From Natronospirillum operosum (lineage in GTDB: Bacteria; Pseudomonadota; Gammaproteobacteria; Pseudomonadales; Natronospirillaceae): DNA of 64,000 bases. The DNA lies in assembly GCF_004768465.1 (NCBI RefSeq), contig NZ_SRMF01000002.1:101606-165605 (forward strand). Direction: 5' to 3'. Shown piece by piece: positions 53,138 to 62,698 of this stretch. Position 1 is the first letter of the stretch. Every line of letters begins with the position of its first letter. Both the position numbers and the translations under genes were made by a program. A model generated the notes under the pieces. That model ran no database searches. It saw only the letters and a list, made by a program, of their open reading frames with translations, and was not told where the DNA came from.

Positions 53138-55108
53138 CTACCAATAGGTACCGAGGGAGAGGCGCGCTTCCTGCGTATCCCAGTGCTGCCAACGCAGCCT
53201 GACATCCCAGCGCTGGCTGCTGCCGACGCGCATACCGGCATCCAGCAACCAGTCTCCCGAATCCGCTGCCTGTGCGACCGGCCAGCGATAGGCCGCCGAC
53301 AACCCGCTACTGAAACCGATACCCCAGTGATTGATCAGACCGGTGCGCGGCGTGAGCGAGAGCACACCGTCCGTTTCCGAGTCCAGGCGCCCTTCCAGCA
53401 GCCCATAGGCGGCCCAGTTGCCGGGGCGGCCCAGCGCCATGCCGGGTCCGCCTTCCGCAAACCAGGCCCCACAGTCGGTACAGGCCAGGCCGGTCTGTTC
53501 ATAGCCCGCCCGCAGGCGCCCGGACCAGGCACGGGTACCGGGCAGCCCGGTGGCGGGAACATTGAGCGCAGTGACACTGACCAGATCAAGGCTGCGCAGC
53601 TGCACTGTGTCCTCGAACGCTGTCACCTTCACGTCCAGCATGCTCAGTTCGGAAAATTCGGGACGCGCAACCGGCCTTGCCAGCAGGTCATAATAGGACA
53701 GACGGAAACGGGCCATGGCCCCAGGACCCTGTTCCTGATTCCACAGCCCGGAAGTTTCCAGCAGGGTCGGATAGTTGGCCCTGTGCACCGGCGCCGGCGC
53801 GCCCGGCACCGCCCGCGCTTCACCATTGACCTGCACCGACAGCGGCTGCGCCGGCGCCGCTCGGGAGGGCAAGGCGGCACGTCGGGCCATCAGCTCGGTC
53901 AGGCCGGGTGCACCGTTCCAGGCCAGTGGGTACTCGGTCTGGATGGAACTGTAGGCCAGCAGCACATCCAGCAGCGCCGCTTCGTCGGCGTCCGACAGGG
54001 CCGCCTCACTGATCAATGTCAGGTCCGGCTCAGCCAGCCAGCGCTGCGCCAGAGTCCGCTGCGCCGGATTCAGGTTGGCCCAGTCCGCAGCCAGTTCGGA
54101 CTCGCGCGAAGGGTAATAGATCACGGATTCGACCAGGTCGCGACCGTTCAGTTGAGTGCCCGCCAGGTGATTGAATATATCGTGCGGCATGGTCCAGGGC
54201 TTGATCCGGTTGTCGAGTGACTGTCCTTCCGGCAGCACCAGATTGATCACGGCCGCTGTGCGATAGGCACAGTTGGAGCCGGTAAAATAGTAGGTGAATT
54301 CCTTGCCCAGCAACTCCCAGGTGTGCGCCACAATCAGCGCCGCCTGCTCGGGCTCGAGATCCAGTCGGTATTCCCACAGGTCGCGCTGCTGGTACTCGCC
54401 ATAAAGCACCGAGTTCTGATGAAAGCGGGCATGCGAGAAGACCGCCTGATACCCGCCCAGCATGCCTCGGCCGATAAACATCAGCGGGCTCTCCCCTGAG
54501 GGCAGATCCACACCAAAATTGACGCTGGTGGCCAACAGATTCTGCCTGTTACCGCCCGGGTCGGGAGAGTAGCCACGTTCGTTCAGCTTGAGCAGCACAT
54601 GGCCGTAAAGCGACGAAGGATTGCGCAGATAGCCGTCGGCGGAGATCAGGCTGATGGAGGTAATCTCGCTGCCACCCTCGCCGCGCCAGTTGCCATAGCC
54701 AATGCACTCGGGGGTCGGCAGACCAGTTACCTGCGGCAACTCCTGCTGCAACCAGAGCAACCGCGCGGGGAAACGACACTGCGCGTGCGACTCGTCCAGA
54801 CCGTTGACCGGTTCGAACATGGCTTCGATGGTGGCCTGCAGCTCCGCCTGCGAGCTGTTTGCGCCATCGGGGTGCAGAAAAAATTCAGGGGAATGGATGT
54901 CACTGCGGACCGAACCGGCAAGCCGGGGGGAATAATGTACCAGTTGATGCCAGCGCGGCCGCTCGTGCAGGGCGCTCGCCTCTGCTGCCGCCTGCCAGAC
55001 TTCAGAATCGACCGCACTGCCGGTGGCCTGCGCCAGCACGACGCCGGGCCAGCACGCGATCAAACCCAGGCCGCCGATCAACAGCCGCACAGGGTCAGCT
55101 TTTTTCAT
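53138..55108 (-). CDS. DUF4105-type exported protein (Lnb N-terminal periplasmic domain-like)
   Basis: This 656-residue exported protein has a signal peptide (MKKADPVRLLIGGLGLIACWPGVVLA) and a central domain containing SLYGHVLLKLNE, HARFHQNSVLYGEYQQRDLWEYRLDLEPEQ and FTGSNCAYRTAAVINLVLPE, as in the DUF4105/Lnb periplasmic family. The C-terminal 200 residues are rich in aromatic beta-strand-like pattern. The start at 55108 overlaps the upstream stop (ATGA); an ATG at 55126 with GGGGAG is an alternative. DUF4105 proteins are poorly characterised envelope proteins. Confidence 0.8.
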   Translation of the reverse strand: MKKADPVRLLIGGLGLIACWPGVVLAQATGSAVDSEVWQAAAEASALHERPRWHQLVHYSPRLAGSVRSDIHSPEFFLHPDGANSSQAELQATIEAMFEPVNGLDESHAQCRFPARLLWLQQELPQVTGLPTPECIGYGNWRGEGGSEITSISLISADGYLRNPSSLYGHVLLKLNERGYSPDPGGNRQNLLATSVNFGVDLPSGESPLMFIGRGMLGGYQAVFSHARFHQNSVLYGEYQQRDLWEYRLDLEPEQAALIVAHTWELLGKEFTYYFTGSNCAYRTAAVINLVLPEGQSLDNRIKPWTMPHDIFNHLAGTQLNGRDLVESVIYYPSRESELAADWANLNPAQRTLAQRWLAEPDLTLISEAALSDADEAALLDVLLAYSSIQTEYPLAWNGAPGLTELMARRAALPSRAAPAQPLSVQVNGEARAVPGAPAPVHRANYPTLLETSGLWNQEQGPGAMARFRLSYYDLLARPVARPEFSELSMLDVKVTAFEDTVQLRSLDLVSVTALNVPATGLPGTRAWSGRLRAGYEQTGLACTDCGAWFAEGGPGMALGRPGNWAAYGLLEGRLDSETDGVLSLTPRTGLINHWGIGFSSGLSAAYRWPVAQAADSGDWLLDAGMRVGSSQRWDVRLRWQHWDTQEARLSLGTYW

Positions 55109-55587
55109 CCTTGAACACAGGGCCATGCATCAGTCTCCCCGGACAACAACGCCAGATACCAGAGCGTCATCTCCTGTCTTCCGTTGGCCGTGACGTCCCC
55201 CAGTTCGGCGGCAAAACGCGCCCGCGCTGCGCCGAGCAGATCCTGACGCCCTGTTCCCGGACAGCGCAGTTGCTGCAGTACGCTGTCGGTATAGGGTCCG
55301 CCGCCGCGCAGAAGTTCGTACTCCAGTTGTGGCAGAGTTTCAGCGATCAGAAACAGACCGCGCGCCCTGAAATCACCACAGCGGGCATCAGGCATGCCGA
55401 AGGAGGCTATATCAATGCTCATGAAGCCCCAGTCAATGCGGGATGCCGGGTAGCCCAGCTCGGTATGTCGATAGACAGCGCCATCAATGCCGCACTCGGC
55501 CATCAGATGTGCTGGCGTGGCCTGAACATTCTGCGCCTGGCCCGGTATCGCAAGCAATAGCAGGAGAACTGACAGTACTGACTTCAT
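55105..55587 (-). CDS. Exported protein of unknown function
   Basis: The 160-residue protein has a signal peptide (MKSVLSVLLLLLAIPGQAQ) and about four cysteines in the mature part (ECGID, ARCGDF, QLRCPG, WPCVQG), probably disulfide-bonded. A GTG three codons upstream is an alternative start. No family is recognised. It shares an ATGA junction with the DUF4105 gene and is probably its operon partner. Confidence 0.75.
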   Translation of the reverse strand: MKSVLSVLLLLLAIPGQAQNVQATPAHLMAECGIDGAVYRHTELGYPASRIDWGFMSIDIASFGMPDARCGDFRARGLFLIAETLPQLEYELLRGGGPYTDSVLQQLRCPGTGRQDLLGAARARFAAELGDVTANGRQEMTLWYLALLSGETDAWPCVQG

Positions 55588-55677
55588 CGCCTTCACGCCC
55601 CAGTGCGATCATGAACTTGCTGGCCTGGATAATACTCCGCTACTGTAACCTGTCTGTAAAGTGAGGGACAAACAAAA

Positions 55678-56391: not shown

Positions 56392-56529
56392 GTTTCACCT
56401 CTTCGCTTTTTCATGAATTCACGCTGACTACTGCATTGGCCGTGCCAGTCTGACATTAAAATCTATAACTCATTGTTTTATAAACGAATTTATTTATTTT
56501 CCCGGAAAAACCCGCACCCTGAGCACTGT

Positions 56530-56558
56530 TTGACACCCTCAAAAACATGTGCCACATT
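56530..56558 (+). promoter_or_regulatory. Possible promoter of the second kinase-regulator operon
   Basis: TTGACA (56530-56535) and CACATT (56553-56558) are 17 bases apart. The -10 is weak and is overlapped by one of two ATGTGCCAC direct repeats (56547-56555, 56564-56572), a possible regulator site. Transcription would start about 25 bases before the GTG. Confidence 0.45.
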
Positions 56559-56589
56559 GACTCATGTGCCACCTGAACGAGGTCTCCCT

Positions 56590-58116
56590 GTGTCATATCG
56601 ATACACTCACTATGATCCGACTCGGCGCGTATCGGCGCACCAACCGTCCAGTCTGCGTTCGGTATTGCTGGTGCAGGTCGCCCTGCCTGTGCTGCTGCTG
56701 ATGGGTGGCGTGCTGGCCATCACGTTGAATGTGGTAGCCCATTTCACCGAGGAGCGCCTGCAGCGCAATCTCCAGATCCTGGCACAGGCCATCAGCCTGC
56801 CGGTATCCGAGGCCATGGAGCGTGGCGACCTGGAGCAGGCGGAGAACAGCCTGCGCTCGGTATTCGGCATCAGCGAAGTCTATGGTGCCTATCTGTTCAA
56901 TGCGGAGGGCGAACAGATTATCAGCCTCGGGTCCGTGCATCCCACTCGCCGCCAGGCCGACGAGGCGCTGCGACAGACTGAGGAAGGCGAGTTCGCGCAG
57001 TACGAGAGTATTGACGGGCGCAATGTTTATTCCTACTTCATGCCGCTGTTCCGCACCGCCGGTCAACCCAACGGCTTTCTTCAGGTCACCCGACGACGCA
57101 GTGACATCGACAACCAGTTGCTGCAGTTGCGCAACTGGTCCTGGACCGGCTTCGGGCTGCTGGCCCTGCTTATACTGGGCACCATTACACTGGCCCACCA
57201 GCGCAGCATCGGCCAGCCGCTGGATCGATTGCTGAGCAGCATGCAGAAGGTGCAGGAAGGCGACCGGGCTCATCGGGCCGACATCAAGGGGCCGAAGGAG
57301 GTGCGCCAGCTTGCCGGAGGTCTCAATGGCATGCTGGATGCCATCCAGTTGGCAGAACTGAGGGCTGTACGCCAGCGCGAGGAGCGCGCGCAAATGGCGG
57401 AGAAGCTGCGCCAGGCTGAAACGCTGGCGGCGCTGGGTCAGTTGGCCGCCGGCGTGGCGCATGAACTGGGGGCGCCACTGAGTGTTGTGGACGGGCGCGC
57501 CCGACGCCTGCAGCGGCGTCTGGATCAGCCCGAGGACAACCAGGAGCTGGAGGATATCCGCACCCAGGCCGCCCGCATGACGTCCATCATCGAACAGTTG
57601 CTGTCTTACGGGCGCCGCTCGCGCGCCCAGCAACGCCCTCTGTGTCTGGCCGCACTGACCCAGCGCGCCTGTGCGCTGGTCGGGGACGAAACATCAGATG
57701 ATCGGGTCACCGTGGTCAGCGGGCCCGAGTGCAAGATCAAAGGCGATTCCCTGAGCCTGGAACAGGCTCTGGTCAATCTGCTGCGCAATGCCCTGCAGGC
57801 TGACCCGGCAGGACAGATTCGCATCGGCTGGCAACTGGAAGAGAGCGCCAACGGATCAGTTGACCAGGTCACGGTGACTGTAGAGGACGCAGGACCGGGC
57901 ATACCGCCGGAGCAGGCGGATCAGTTGTTCGAGCCCTTCTATACCACCAAGGCACCGGGAGAAGGCAGCGGCCTGGGTCTGGCCATCGTGAAACGGGTCC
58001 TGCGCGAGCATCAGGGCAGCATAAAGATAGACCGCAGCCCCGGCCTCGGCGGCGCCCGCTTCAGCCTTACATTCCCGCTCCTGACTGCAGATGCCCAGGG
58101 AGAGCCCAGCGCATGA
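56590..58116 (+). CDS. Membrane sensor histidine kinase (partner of sigma54 regulator)
   Basis: The GTG at 56590 with GAGG 7 bases upstream gives 508 residues; the longer upstream frame is not supported. Layout: membrane helix (about 23-48), periplasmic domain, second helix (about 175-198), HAMP (about 200-250), HisKA with His291 in AAGVAHELGAPLSVVDG, and ATPase domain (NLLRNALQADP, DAGPGIPPEQ, GSGLGLAIVKRV). The regulator gene overlaps it by 4 bases (ATGA). The ligand is unknown; the exported-protein genes on the opposite strand could be its targets or signals, but that is inference. Confidence 0.92.
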   Translation: MSYRYTHYDPTRRVSAHQPSSLRSVLLVQVALPVLLLMGGVLAITLNVVAHFTEERLQRNLQILAQAISLPVSEAMERGDLEQAENSLRSVFGISEVYGAYLFNAEGEQIISLGSVHPTRRQADEALRQTEEGEFAQYESIDGRNVYSYFMPLFRTAGQPNGFLQVTRRRSDIDNQLLQLRNWSWTGFGLLALLILGTITLAHQRSIGQPLDRLLSSMQKVQEGDRAHRADIKGPKEVRQLAGGLNGMLDAIQLAELRAVRQREERAQMAEKLRQAETLAALGQLAAGVAHELGAPLSVVDGRARRLQRRLDQPEDNQELEDIRTQAARMTSIIEQLLSYGRRSRAQQRPLCLAALTQRACALVGDETSDDRVTVVSGPECKIKGDSLSLEQALVNLLRNALQADPAGQIRIGWQLEESANGSVDQVTVTVEDAGPGIPPEQADQLFEPFYTTKAPGEGSGLGLAIVKRVLREHQGSIKIDRSPGLGGARFSLTFPLLTADAQGEPSA

Positions 58117-59567
58117 CCCACCCAGCTGTCAGCCCGCTGCTGTTGATCGAAGACGATACGGCCCTGTCACACCTGATTACCGACGAGCTCGAAGCCGAGG
58201 GCTGGACCGTCAAGGCCTTTACGCACCTGGAAGCCGGACGGGCCTGGCTGGCCCAGCACCAGCCAGCGCTGGTTATCACCGACCTGCGCCTGCCCGATGG
58301 CAATGGCATGGACCTGGTACATGAGATCATGCGCAGCGCTGATGAGCGTGAAGGCCAGCAGCGCCCTGGCGTGATCGTGATCACTGCCTTCGGCAGTGTG
58401 CCCCAGGCAGTGGAAGCACTGCAGGCCGGAGCCGACGACTTCCTGACCAAGCCGCTGGACCTCGACCATTTTCTGCTCAGTGTCGCCCGAGTGCTGGAGC
58501 ACCGCACACTGCGGCACGAACTCAGCCGCTTCCGGGCCCTGTCCAGAGACCCGGGCTTTCATGGCCTGTACGGCCAGAGCGAACAGATGCGAACTCTGTT
58601 CGAACAGATCCGGGTGATCGGCCGGGCACATGGTCCGGTACTGATCAACGGCGAAAGCGGTACCGGCAAGGAACTGGTCGCGCAGGCACTGTACGCTGAG
58701 AGCGACCGGGCGGATGGCCCTTTCCTGGCTGTGAACTGTGCCGGCATTCCGCAGGAATTGCTGGAAAGCGAATTCTTCGGCCATGCCAGCGGCGCCTTTA
58801 CCGGCGCCCGCAATGCGCGCAAGGGCCTGCTGCAGGAAGCGGATGGCGGCACCCTGCTGCTGGATGAAATCGCTGAAATGCCGCTGTCGCTGCAGGCCAA
58901 GTTGCTGCGCGCGCTGCAGGATGGTTCCATTCGGCCTGTCGGCCAGGACACTGAAGAGCATGTGGATGTGCGCATTATTGCTGCCACCCACCGTGACCTG
59001 AAGCAGCGTGTGGAGGCGGGGGAGTTTCGGGAAGATCTCTACTATCGACTGGAAACCTTCACCCTGAAAATACCGCCACTGCGCAAGCGGGGCGAAGACT
59101 GCGACCTGCTCGCACAGCGCTTTGTACAGCAGTTTGCCACCGCCCAGGACAAGGACATTGAAGGGGTTGGCCCGGAAGCCATGGCCCGGCTGCGACGTTA
59201 TGACTTCCCCGGCAATGTCAGGGAACTGCAGAATGTCATTGAGCGGGCCGTGGCCTTCTGCAACAGCCGCTGGATTGAACCCGATCATCTGCCCACCCGT
59301 CTGAGCGAGCAGGCCCTGGCCCTGACCGACGCAGACAATACCGATACCCACCAGGCCCTGCCGAGTCAGTCTGCGGGTCCCCAGTTGCTGGACGGCGAAG
59401 AACTGCCCACTCTGGAAGCAGTACAGCGACGCTATATCAAACTGGTGCTCGACCGGGTTGCCGGCAACAAGCGGCAGGCCGCCGGGATTCTGGGCATCGG
59501 GCGGCGTACGCTCTATCGCTGGCTGGACGAACTGGACAACGTACCGACAGAATCCGGAGATGGATAA
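58113..59567 (+). CDS. Sigma54-dependent response regulator (second NtrC/ZraR-like)
   Basis: The 484-residue NtrC-type activator has receiver Asp57 in VITDLRLPDGNG, AAA+ with Walker A GESGTGKE, GAFTGA and Walker B LLLDEI, and Fis-type helix-turn-helix (RVAGNKRQAAGILGIGRRTLYRWL). It overlaps the kinase gene by 4 bases, so the two form a pair. Its target promoter could be the sigma54-like promoter at 29100 or one outside the window; no -24/-12 match was seen next to it. Confidence 0.93.
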   Translation: MTHPAVSPLLLIEDDTALSHLITDELEAEGWTVKAFTHLEAGRAWLAQHQPALVITDLRLPDGNGMDLVHEIMRSADEREGQQRPGVIVITAFGSVPQAVEALQAGADDFLTKPLDLDHFLLSVARVLEHRTLRHELSRFRALSRDPGFHGLYGQSEQMRTLFEQIRVIGRAHGPVLINGESGTGKELVAQALYAESDRADGPFLAVNCAGIPQELLESEFFGHASGAFTGARNARKGLLQEADGGTLLLDEIAEMPLSLQAKLLRALQDGSIRPVGQDTEEHVDVRIIAATHRDLKQRVEAGEFREDLYYRLETFTLKIPPLRKRGEDCDLLAQRFVQQFATAQDKDIEGVGPEAMARLRRYDFPGNVRELQNVIERAVAFCNSRWIEPDHLPTRLSEQALALTDADNTDTHQALPSQSAGPQLLDGEELPTLEAVQRRYIKLVLDRVAGNKRQAAGILGIGRRTLYRWLDELDNVPTESGDG

Positions 59568-59768
59568 TGATTCTGGATTAAATTGCGTTCATGACGGGCG
59601 TTGCCGGCTGCGTTCATCTACACTGAGTAAGGAGACAAGCAGGATGTTTCTCCAGTGTGATTCAGCACTCAGGGATTCCTCGTAATGCAGCAGCACGAAA
59701 CTGGGGTGCCTCTCTACAGCGTACATCGGCACCTTCGGGTACAGGCATCCGCCTGTACCCTTTTTTTT
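59568..59768 (+). ncRNA. Candidate small RNA or leader region with perfect terminator
   Basis: This gap holds a 13-codon frame with an AAGGAG ribosome site (ATG at 59644), an internal stem GGTGCC/GGCACC (about 59705-59733), and a terminator hairpin at 59737-59768. It could be the 3' end of the two-component operon, a small RNA, or a peptide gene. I saw no convincing promoter. Confidence 0.35.
59737..59768 (+). terminator. Perfect rho-independent terminator
   Basis: GGGTACAGGC pairs perfectly with GCCTGTACCC around ATCC and is followed by eight T. This is the strongest terminator in the window. It ends the two-component transcript or the candidate small RNA. Confidence 0.95.
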
Positions 59769-59780
59769 GGTCCGCCCCGG

Positions 59781-59809
59781 GCAGACACCCGACAACCCCT
59801 TCCCTACAA
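59781..59809 (+). promoter_or_regulatory. Possible promoter of rsmC
   Basis: CAGACA and TACAAT are separated by 17 bases just upstream of rsmC, directly after the terminator. Four of six and five of six positions match the consensus. Transcription would start roughly 30 bases before the start codon. Confidence 0.5.
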
Positions 59810-59844
59810 TGCGCACCTGGCCCGTTCAAAGAGACCCCGCGCCC

Positions 59845-60870
59845 ATGCCTGACAGTTCCCGTCTGTCCTCCGCCGCCGACCTGTTGCACCGTTGGCTCCC
59901 CGTTGGCTCTTCCAGCCTGTTGCTGAACACCCGCGAACCGGATGTGGCCGCTGCTGTACAGGCGCGGCAGGCCGAGCCAGCCCCCCTGCACTGCCATTTT
60001 GCAGCCGAAGCGTCTGCCGTGCACGATCAACTCGGGCTGCCGGCCCTGACCTTTCCCCAGGTGCCGGCACAGCCCCCGGAAAGAGTCATCTGGGCCTGGC
60101 CCAAGGCCAAGGCGGAGGCCGACATGCTGCTGGCCTGGCTGGCCGCCTGGCTGCCGGCGAGCGGCGAGCTCTGGCTGAGCGGTGACAATCGGGCGGGCAT
60201 TCGCTCTGCCCCCCGTTTCCTGACCCAGCGCGGCTGGACCGTGCGCAAGGTCGGCAGTGCGCGTCATGCGGCCCTGCTGCGCGCCCAGCCACCGACCGAG
60301 GCCCACTCGTTCAGCCTGGATACCTACTGGCAGACTGTCTCCGTACCCGAAGCTGAAAACCGTCTGCTCTGCAGCCTGCCAGGGGTATTCAGTCACGGTC
60401 GCATCGACCGGGGCAGTCAGTATCTGTTGCCTCTGCTGGCTGACCTGCAGGGTCCGGTGCTGGATTTTGGCTGTGGGGCAGGTCTGCTGTCGCTGGTCGT
60501 GCAGGCCCTGCATCCGGAGGCGGCCATCACGGCGGTCGACAACCACTGGTTGGCCATTCTCAGCAGTCGGGAAACAGCCCGGCGCAATGGCTGGCAATGG
60601 GACCTGCACTGGCAGGATGGTCTGGGCGACCTGCAAGGCCCCTTCGCCACCCTGGTGACCAACCCACCCTTTCATACCGGCCTGGATGTCCAGTACGACA
60701 CCACGCATGACCTGATCGCCCGCAGCCGCCACCTGCTGCAACCGGGCGGCCGCTGGCTGGCGGTGGTCAACGACCACCTGCCCTATCGGGACTGGCTGCT
60801 GCAGCATCTCGGAGCGGTGGAGTGCCTGCGCCACGAGGGTGGGTTCAGAGTCTGGTCGGCGACTGTATAG
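59845..60870 (+). CDS. rsmC: 16S rRNA m2G1207 methyltransferase RsmC-like
   Basis: RsmC methylates guanine 1207 in 16S rRNA with S-adenosylmethionine. The ATG at 59845 gives 341 residues, against 343 in Escherichia coli RsmC; longer in-frame starts lie in the promoter region. An N-terminal degenerate domain precedes the SAM-binding domain: VLDFGCGAGLLS (about 205-216), and N273-P-P-F in LVTNPPFHTG. The C-terminal part closes with GGFRVW. It is a stand-alone gene, convergent with the regulator at 60889. Confidence 0.93.
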   Translation: MPDSSRLSSAADLLHRWLPVGSSSLLLNTREPDVAAAVQARQAEPAPLHCHFAAEASAVHDQLGLPALTFPQVPAQPPERVIWAWPKAKAEADMLLAWLAAWLPASGELWLSGDNRAGIRSAPRFLTQRGWTVRKVGSARHAALLRAQPPTEAHSFSLDTYWQTVSVPEAENRLLCSLPGVFSHGRIDRGSQYLLPLLADLQGPVLDFGCGAGLLSLVVQALHPEAAITAVDNHWLAILSSRETARRNGWQWDLHWQDGLGDLQGPFATLVTNPPFHTGLDVQYDTTHDLIARSRHLLQPGGRWLAVVNDHLPYRDWLLQHLGAVECLRHEGGFRVWSATV

Positions 60871-60888
60871 CGAGCCCCATATCAGCAG

Positions 60889-61626
60889 TCAGGGGGCGCT
60901 GAACGGGTCCTCGACAAACAGATAGCCCTTGGAGCGTACTGTCTTGATGCGGCGCGGATGGTCGGGGTCATCACCGACCTTGGGACGGATTCGGGATACG
61001 CGCACATCCACCGAACGGTCCTGGCCGTCATACTCGATACCGCGCAGACGGGTGAAAATCTCTTCCCGGGTCAGTATACGACCGGCATGGCTGCCCAGCA
61101 GCCACAGCAGATCGAACTCGGCGCTGGTCAGCTCGATCGGCTGGTCATGCAGCCAGGCTTCACGCATGGTGTTGTCGATTACCAGGTCACCGAAGTCGAG
61201 TCGTTCATGCTGGCATCTGGCCTGTTCGTCCCAGGCTTCCACACGCCGGAAGACGGCCGCCATGCGTGCGGCCAGCAGCCGCGGTGATACATGCTTGAGC
61301 ACATAGTCGTCGGCGCCCATGTCCAGACCCAGGACCTGATCAAGCTCATCGCAGCGCTCGGCCATCAGCACAAAGGGACCAAAAAAATGCTGTCGGCTCA
61401 GCTTGCAGACCGTCAGTCCGTTCTCCCCTGGCAGATCCACTGCAGCAATCACCACATCAGGGGGTTCTGCGACTATTCGCTTCAGAGCCACCTTGCCGTT
61501 ATCTTCCTCCACCACCGTATAGCCACGAGCGGAAAAATAGTCCCGCAACCGCCTCCGGTTGGCAGCGTCATCATCAACCAGCATCAGTGTTCTGGTGGTG
61601 GCATTCTGACTGCCGTCTGTACCCAT
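60889..61626 (-). CDS. OmpR/RstA-like regulator with degenerate receiver
   Basis: The 245-residue protein has a receiver-like domain and a normal winged helix (ELTSAEFDLLWLLG, RGIEYDGQDRSVDVRVSRIR). The phospho-acceptor position reads Ala62 (VIAAVDLPGENG, where Asp is expected three residues before LPG), the Thr/Ser switch is Met88, and the residue after the conserved Lys111 is His112 where Pro is usual. The acidic pair D18-D19 remains. It is therefore unlikely to be phosphorylated in the standard way. No histidine kinase gene lies beside it. The ATG at 61626 follows AGGG; a GTG two codons upstream is possible. Confidence 0.9.
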   Translation of the reverse strand: MGTDGSQNATTRTLMLVDDDAANRRRLRDYFSARGYTVVEEDNGKVALKRIVAEPPDVVIAAVDLPGENGLTVCKLSRQHFFGPFVLMAERCDELDQVLGLDMGADDYVLKHVSPRLLAARMAAVFRRVEAWDEQARCQHERLDFGDLVIDNTMREAWLHDQPIELTSAEFDLLWLLGSHAGRILTREEIFTRLRGIEYDGQDRSVDVRVSRIRPKVGDDPDHPRRIKTVRSKGYLFVEDPFSAP

Positions 61627-61765
61627 GCACACCCTGCCCTGACGTTACGGATTTGAAGAACACCGGGGTATTCTGGAAAAACCCCGACTGACTGTCCTAT
61701 TAATGTAGTCGGACTAGAAAAAATTGCTTAATTGAAGTGCCAAAAATGTAGGCCTGATCACAGCA

Positions 61766-62698
61766 TCAGCGCCCTTCCCACTCGTGCGGCTCGGTGGCGA
61801 TGGCCGCCATCAATGAACCAACACTGCCGTAGATGCCGCCAGCCAGGCCCGCTACCGCCGGAATCAATTGCAAATGGCGCACCCGACAGGCTTCCTCCAG
61901 GCTGGCATAGCCCGGGAGTTCACGCAGTTCCGACAGGCTGCCCGAATAGTTGACCGTCACCACAGGCGACAGCAGGTGAGTGGTCTCCACTCGGGTCTGC
62001 AGATGCTGAAATATGCCGGCGGCGGCATTGTTGAAGCCGCGAATCCGGTCTACCTGGTATGACTGATCATTGACGATGCAGAGAATGGGGTGAATGCCCA
62101 GCGTGTTGGCCACCAGCGCCTGGGTCCACTTGACGGCGCGCTCGCCGCGGGTTCGTGAGCGTTCCAGGGCCACCAGCGGTTCGCGCGGCGCCACAAAGGT
62201 ATGCACAAAGCTGGACATGTAATCGAGTTCGCGGCGCATCCGTACCGGGTCTTCGTCGGTCTGCAGGCGGCGCACTGCCTCGGCCGCCAGCAGCGCCTGC
62301 CCGGCAAATACGGTACGACTGTCCATCACGCGAATAAAGACCTTGCGGGGTGGTTCCAGTTGCCGGGCCACATCTGCTGCCGCCTGATTGGCCTGTTCGT
62401 AAGTCAGCCCCTGCATCCGGTTCAGTGTCTGAATCCAGATATGTTCATAGCCCTGCTCGATCAGTTGCCGGAGCAAACCCGCAAATGCGGCGACCGAAGG
62501 GGCTTCCGTAGTGACCTTGTGGCGACGGCTCAGGCGGCCGGAACGGAACAGACGCAGAGACGCCTGATCATCACAGGGATCGGCAAAATGTTCACCGTCA
62601 ATGCTGATGTTTATCGGCACCTGAAAGATGTGAAAATCCCGCATGAACTGTGGCGGCAGAGCACACACCGAATCGACGACGACCGCTACCCTGGGCAC
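61766..62698 (-). CDS. DegV-family protein
   Basis: The DegV family binds fatty acids in Gram-positive bacteria and supports fatty-acid kinase; the role in proteobacteria is unclear. From the GTG at 62698 the protein has 310 residues, with VAVVVDSVCALPPQF as the first strand and IWIQTLNRMQGLTYEQAN in the DegV pattern. AAGGAGG lies 10 bases upstream and decides the start; the longer frame upstream overlaps the divergent gene region. The 139-bp gap to the regulator gene contains no gene, only a small palindrome TAGTCGGACTA (61708-61718). Confidence 0.85.
   Translation of the reverse strand: MPRVAVVVDSVCALPPQFMRDFHIFQVPINISIDGEHFADPCDDQASLRLFRSGRLSRRHKVTTEAPSVAAFAGLLRQLIEQGYEHIWIQTLNRMQGLTYEQANQAAADVARQLEPPRKVFIRVMDSRTVFAGQALLAAEAVRRLQTDEDPVRMRRELDYMSSFVHTFVAPREPLVALERSRTRGERAVKWTQALVANTLGIHPILCIVNDQSYQVDRIRGFNNAAAGIFQHLQTRVETTHLLSPVVTVNYSGSLSELRELPGYASLEEACRVRHLQLIPAVAGLAGGIYGSVGSLMAAIATEPHEWEGR

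Follow-up and report, generated by a model that had tools for sequence, protein, structure and literature searches.

The gene analysed here encodes an OmpR/PhoB-type response regulator that descends from RstA/BfmR and has neither the phospho-acceptor aspartate nor a cognate RstB kinase. It lies in a window of 64,000 nucleotides from Natronospirillum operosum, the whole stretch of DNA under study. From comparison with related genomes, we consider it probable that the protein is a vertically inherited RstA/BfmR persisting after the loss of RstB, with a receiver serving as a phosphate-free dimerisation module, intact DNA-binding domains and an activity set by its amount. The gene is one open frame on the minus strand, with its ATG at 61626 and its stop at 60889. 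Its parts are the following.

60889..61626, minus strand: OmpR/PhoB-type regulator of RstA/BfmR descent, its receiver aspartate-less (245 aa; coordinates include the stop)
61243..61590, minus strand: receiver domain, residues 13-128 (Pfam PF00072; confident model; Z 22 against BfmR receiver structures)
60907..61203, minus strand: DNA-binding domain, residues 142-240 (Pfam and alignment; most conserved part of the protein)
61441..61443, minus strand: Ala62, codon GCA, at the phospho-acceptor column (alignment and codon reading)
61405..61407, minus strand: codon 74, Cys, candidate alternative input (kept in 20/21 family and 28/28 canonical orthologues)
61360..61362, minus strand: Ala89, at the column of the switch Thr (alignment)
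61291..61293, minus strand: His112, at the column of the conserved Pro, next after Lys111 (alignment)

The protein has the architecture of the OmpR/PhoB family, a receiver together with a Trans_reg_C winged helix. PF00072 matches residues 15-121 (60.8 bits, cut-off 30.2) and PF00486 (Trans_reg_C) matches residues 162-237 (85.8 bits, cut-off 26.2). The top NCBIfam match is RstA (NF007977) at 211.9 bits, which misses the curated cut-off of 330 bits. We set this cut-off aside as a test of RstA identity because three canonical Asp-bearing relatives also fall below it, at 255 to 264 bits. The best relatives of solved structure include, for residues 141-240, the RstA/BfmR DNA-binding domain (E 3.1e-44), and also the BfmR receiver (E 9.6e-30). 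Structures 5e3j and 5hm6 carry the BfmR receiver name, and 2naz is presumably the Acinetobacter protein. On the trees, the window protein groups with canonical RstA/BfmR, apart from the other regulators of its own genome; the OmpR-type paralogues of that genome are at most 39% identical to it. The first-pass annotation, made from the window alone, had described an OmpR/RstA-like regulator with an intact DNA-binding domain, and both points are borne out. The AlphaFold model (mean pLDDT 87.4, pTM 0.56, segments below 50 only at residues 1-8 and 135-139) predicts an intact receiver fold, with Z about 22 to BfmR receivers; being a monomer, it bears on the fold only and not on an active or inactive state.

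The acceptor column was read after aligning the window protein with 48 relatives, which gave 21 family and 28 canonical rows in all; the 28 were hand-picked from 80 orthologues outside the family. Ala62 falls in this column, which is Asp in 28/28 canonical relatives, as the annotation had proposed. The Ala is not a sequencing slip, since it recurs in the other genome of the genus (89% identical). Met88 had been put forward as the replacement of the switch Thr. The Thr is indeed missing, but its column holds Ala89, and Met88 pairs with the Leu of the canonical 'MLTA'. His112 was correctly named: it fills a column that is Pro in all 28 canonical relatives and follows the retained Lys111. Lys111, Tyr108 and the acidic triad are all present in the window protein. 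An aspartate numbered 66 in the annotation, and considered there for the acceptor pocket, is residue 64 of the 245-aa protein. It stands two residues past the acceptor, where 28/28 canonical relatives have Met and the 21 family members have Asp (17), Asn (3) or Glu (1); the alignment rules it out as the occupant of the acceptor column. The receiver is recognised by PF00072 with its acceptor Asp replaced, as in aspartate-less receivers, and the protein falls outside the RstAB two-component systems in having no phosphorylatable Asp at the acceptor and no cognate RstB.

The family considered is the GTDB family holding Saccharospirillum and Reinekea, of which 22 genomes were searched whole. One orthologue each was found in 21 genomes, which include close pairs, at E 1e-55 or better. 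The window protein is thus an instance of its family's single RstA/BfmR orthologue. The acceptor is Glu in 19 orthologues, Ala in two (both genomes of the window genus) and Asp in none. Conservation of the Ala across relatives, a point raised in the annotation, thus extends to the genus but not to the other 19 family orthologues. The one family genome without an orthologue (G002) gave matches of 34% or weaker only. At the level of the order, 194 genomes yielded 88 matches at E 1e-60 or better; eight are family members and the other 80 all have Asp. A genome-contig scan kept 80 loci, 77 with Asp and three with Glu; the three come from family genomes and are the same assemblies as L144, L146 and L150, so they are not additional evidence.

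Some further copies and variants were seen. The most divergent family orthologue, L158 (G013), has a Glu acceptor, an altered acidic pair, a very long branch, no Lys at the 111 column and no Cys74. Genomes G005, G006 and G011 carry an extra, more distant Asp-bearing relative (L113, L114 and L115) at 43-48% identity. These second copies place among the paralogues on the tree, and an RstB-like kinase match adjoins the copy in G006 and G011.

The main tree was built from 47 proteins, 21 of the family and 26 chosen canonical rows. The family forms one clade with 100/100 support on a long stem (1.18 changes per column). A quick tree of wider scope, with 86 rows of which ten are paralogues, agrees; in both trees the acceptor column (1 of about 247) was left in. 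On the 47-protein tree, the acceptor state needs two changes, D-to-E on the family stem and then E-to-A. Both Ala genomes use GCA for this residue, and their nearest sister, G021, uses GAA. A single change separates GCA from GAA, whereas either Asp codon is two changes away, which makes Asp to Glu to Ala the simplest path.

Three canonical loci were read from end to end, and in each of them rstB comes after rstA. The stretches around the regulator were queried for the kinase with the RstB of Oceanospirillum. Outside the family, an RstB match lies on the same strand beside the regulator in 77 of 80 stretches, counting L213, where the kinase is upstream of the regulator and only its edge is inside the stretch. 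Two of the three remaining stretches end at contig ends, with RstB opening another contig, and the third is L191. Within the family, no RstB was found beside the regulator in the 21 stretches, nor any match of RstB strength in the 22 whole genomes (best E 7.6e-56 at 29% identity). The whole-genome search of outside genomes gave E 3.9e-91 or better in 19 of 20, the twentieth (G148) having a shortened 259-aa frame. Since the loss of the kinase and the loss of the residue form one event on the tree, the link between them lacks independent replication.

Two genomes of one other family of the order keep the Asp next to a reduced or missing kinase. In G148 (L117), an Asp-bearing rstA is followed by the 259-aa kinase frame alone. 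In G121 (L191), no strong RstB was found nearby or elsewhere in the genome. These are possible cases of a kinase lost ahead of the Asp.

Two features flank the regulator gene.

59767..60870, plus strand: rsmC-type methyltransferase, convergent neighbour, outside the system (conserved in 19/21 family genomes)
61700..61727, minus strand: bipartite element GCA-N14-GnCTAnAkT, possible promoter (conserved upstream of the regulator)

The convergent arrangement with rsmC supports the orthology of the regulator genes. The annotation had stated that no kinase is adjacent. This is true for the gene itself, but a histidine kinase (HAMP, HisKA, HATPase) and an NtrC-type (sigma-54-type) regulator are encoded together at 56473-59567 on the plus strand, starting 1.3 kb from the regulator gene, past rsmC. 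This kinase is a weak match to RstB (26.9%) on the opposite strand. The pair is near the gene in both window-genus genomes and absent from the stretches fetched for the remaining 19 genomes of the family; its kinase, unrelated, is the only one with a His box seen in the family stretches. We rejected the pair as the cognate system, as it has its own regulator, is near the gene in only 2/21 genomes and would face a receiver whose acceptor is absent. Farther along the window, at 53138-55596, a Lnb_N/DUF7843/DUF7840 protein is overlapped by a 163-aa frame that has no Pfam match; this is likely a two-gene envelope unit.

The upstream element occurs at fixed spacing in 18/21 family genomes (within loci L138-L157), a post hoc count since the element was chosen by eye in the same sequences; the useful control is its frequency in canonical relatives, 3/154 (1/78 and 2/76). 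It is possibly a family-specific promoter, and it may resemble a stationary-phase (RpoS) -10 element. In the window's genome, the element has a single match, at this gene, and so gives no pointer to a regulon. A scan of 60850-61900 for sigma-70 promoters and terminators found none, with scores at or below the shuffle mean. The E. coli RstA-box TACATNTNGTTACA was sought within 250 bases upstream, and no clear box was seen in family or canonical relatives. Mean best scores (of 12) were 8.38 vs 8.02 for shuffles in the 21 family sequences and 8.34 vs 8.07 in 79 canonical ones. Individual sites look like chance and the box is an E. coli one, so we do not propose autoregulation through it.

The losses within the protein are unevenly distributed. 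Among positions shared by 95% or more of the canonical relatives, the family has lost 21/55 in the receiver and 0/54 in the DNA-binding domain (Fisher p 9e-8, only a guide since the rows are related). The lost positions include the phospho-site residues 62, 89 and 112, with 19 and 20 partly lost, and helix 1 residues 22, 23, 26 and 27. Losses in the triad, the Thr and the Lys differ from one family member to another. The specificity of OmpR for RstB and CpxA was reported to be rewired through helix 1 and the beta5-alpha5 loop (PMC2991266). The alpha4-beta5-alpha5 dimer face is kept, with Asp106 in 21/21, Asp107 in 19/21 (2 Glu), Arg121 in 18/21 (3 Lys) and Arg128 in 21/21, and the DELDQVLGLDMGADD stretch is nearly uniform within the family. 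Positions 22, 23 and 26 are, we assume, the actual specificity sites. Gln97 and Leu117 of the window protein stand at the positions of BfmR Gln93 and Val113, which are described as replacing PhoB Arg91 and Glu111 (PMC4888885).

Within the family, mean pairwise identity is 85% in the DNA-binding domain and 57% in the receiver; the corresponding values among canonical relatives are 77% and 74%. The mean entropy of the DNA-binding domain is likewise lower in the family (0.39 vs 0.62 bits). For the pair of genus members, NG86 gives a dN/dS of about 0.05 in the receiver and 0.01 in the DNA-binding domain; dS is close to saturation in this comparison. These values indicate that the regulator gene is under strong purifying selection. 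Four receiver residues, Leu27, Leu76, Glu94 and Asp102, are newly fixed in 21/21 family orthologues. The family separates two needs of a receiver: residues for phosphotransfer and docking are lost and those for folding and dimerising are kept.

The residue losses, the absence of the kinase, the retained interface and the selection can all be read from the sequences compared, and they suggest the following course of events. On the family stem, RstB would have gone and Asp would have become Glu, which can mimic phosphorylated Asp. The Mg/phosphate site and the kinase-docking helix would have been freed from selection. In the window genus, the acceptor Glu would later have become Ala. The present receiver may be a folded dimerisation module that acts via its alpha4-beta5-alpha5 face, and the dimer would offer two intact DNA-binding domains to a direct-repeat site, free of phosphate. 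Activity would most likely be set by protein amount rather than phosphorylation, the conserved upstream element being present. The annotation had anticipated action independent of phosphorylation, which is supported by the lack of Asp in 21 orthologues, the lack of RstB, the eroded Mg/phosphate and helix-1 docking sites and the purifying selection. Among the modes it listed, dimerisation is favoured because the alpha4-beta5-alpha5 face is retained.

Constitutive dimerisation, DNA binding and control by amount are what we infer, and published work bears on them in both directions. The BfmR receiver was reported to crystallise in its active dimeric form in the absence of phosphate (PMC4888885), and dimerisation free of phosphate may thus have taken only a small step in this lineage. 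Glu at the acceptor is described as able to mimic phosphate, often not alone, and ChxR, with Glu at its acceptor, as keeping DNA binding after a change to Ala or Asp (PMC4395418). Since the BfmR and PhoB literature has phosphate as the usual trigger, and Asp-to-Glu alone is often insufficient, the receiver could equally be locked off. Control by amount leans on a post hoc motif, and the sigma-70 scan, which gave no promoter, counts against it. A fuller history is conceivable, and we put it forward tentatively, at rather less than even chances: Glu would have been fixed as a phospho-mimic that held the regulator on; with RstB lost and a new promoter, the acceptor would have become dispensable, and one genus would have changed Glu to Ala with no loss of function.

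Other uses of the receiver were weighed against the phosphate-free dimerisation module. Dimerisation might be switched by a new input, either redox or sulfide sensed at Cys74 near the dead active site or a ligand in the vacated pocket. Cys74 is retained in all but one of the family orthologues and in every canonical one, in a receiver that otherwise diverges, and the four residues newly fixed in the family would fit such an input. A BfmR receiver Cys, reported to lie near Asp58, was found persulfidated in sulfide-treated cells (PMC7315123), and the sole BfmR Cys in the aligned receiver stretch shares the Cys74 column. The Cys is, however, equally conserved where phosphorylation works and may be structural; as for a ligand, no conserved ligand-site pattern was found and the pocket residues vary widely. 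We regard a new input as unlikely. An obligate heterodimer with a canonical OmpR-type regulator, using the phosphorylation of the partner, would also account for the retained dimer face. Heterodimers of atypical regulators are known for BldM/WhiI, and CmrR and CmrT are reported to act together (PMC12548384). However, no partner regulator was seen beside the gene; OmpR-type paralogues, none above 39% identity, are encoded elsewhere in the genome. We consider this arrangement quite improbable.

Phosphorylation could instead have moved to Asp64, with an unlinked kinase as donor. Residue 64 is acidic in 18/21 family members and Met in 28/28 canonical ones, and the window protein still has Lys111 and a complete acidic triad. 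Against this, the residue is Asn in 3/21, the triad, Thr and Lys are not kept throughout the family, the helix-1 docking positions 22, 23, 26 and 27 have departed from RstA and no RstB was found in the genomes. We give this very little credence. Hardly more can be said for a gene in decay with little function, which we rate lowest of all: the receiver losses are family-wide and L158 is very divergent, without Cys74 and Lys111, but the gene is present in 21/22 family genomes under strong purifying selection, and its DNA-binding domain is more uniform than in canonical relatives.

The proposed phosphate-free dimerisation module has several counterparts. RstA of enterobacteria and BfmR of Acinetobacter, which work with RstB/BfmS, share descent and the DNA-binding domain with the window protein, and BfmR has the same Gln/hydrophobic replacement at one PhoB salt bridge. 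Compared with them, the window protein lacks the acceptor Asp, the switch Thr, the conserved Pro and RstB, and has other neighbours and the upstream element. CosR of thermotolerant Campylobacter, an OmpR-type regulator, resembles the window family in missing both kinase and acceptor Asp, but its acceptor is Asn, as opposed to Glu and then Ala. We take CosR to belong to a different regulator lineage. Thermotolerant Campylobacter are reported to lack the kinase CosS and the acceptor Asp, and sister species to keep the pair (PMC3938529). ChxR of Chlamydia and HP1043 of Helicobacter, both phosphorylation-independent regulators, share with the window protein a degenerate receiver and an OmpR-type output; ChxR is described as having Glu at the acceptor and binding DNA without phosphate. 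Their biochemistry has been demonstrated, whereas the window protein is known from its sequence. CmrT of Clostridioides difficile is another OmpR-type aspartate-less receiver with a Glu acceptor, which its authors take to be constitutive, but its operon, unlike the window gene, includes a kinase and a canonical partner regulator.

Aspartate-less receivers or pseudo-receivers are a described class, in which 26% of the replacements are reported to be Glu and 9% Ala (PMC4395418). Among the matches listed in literature searches on response regulators of this family and on aspartate-less or orphan RstA/BfmR, there was no such case. The RstA/BfmR case is a clear new example of the known class, with an unusually clear history. 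The switching of receivers that are unable to accept phosphate has been described as an unresolved matter (PMC12632262). Here, one orthologous regulator exists in three forms among related bacteria: Asp with kinase, Glu without kinase and Ala without kinase. Because the DNA-binding domain is nearly invariant, these forms allow the worth of Asp, Glu and Ala at the acceptor to be judged against a common background. The family also offers a position-by-position split between the parts of a receiver that serve phosphotransfer and docking and those that serve folding and dimerising. If the Glu was first fixed as a mimic and later became dispensable, it would have served evolution as a bridge between two-component and one-component control, and not as a mimic for good.
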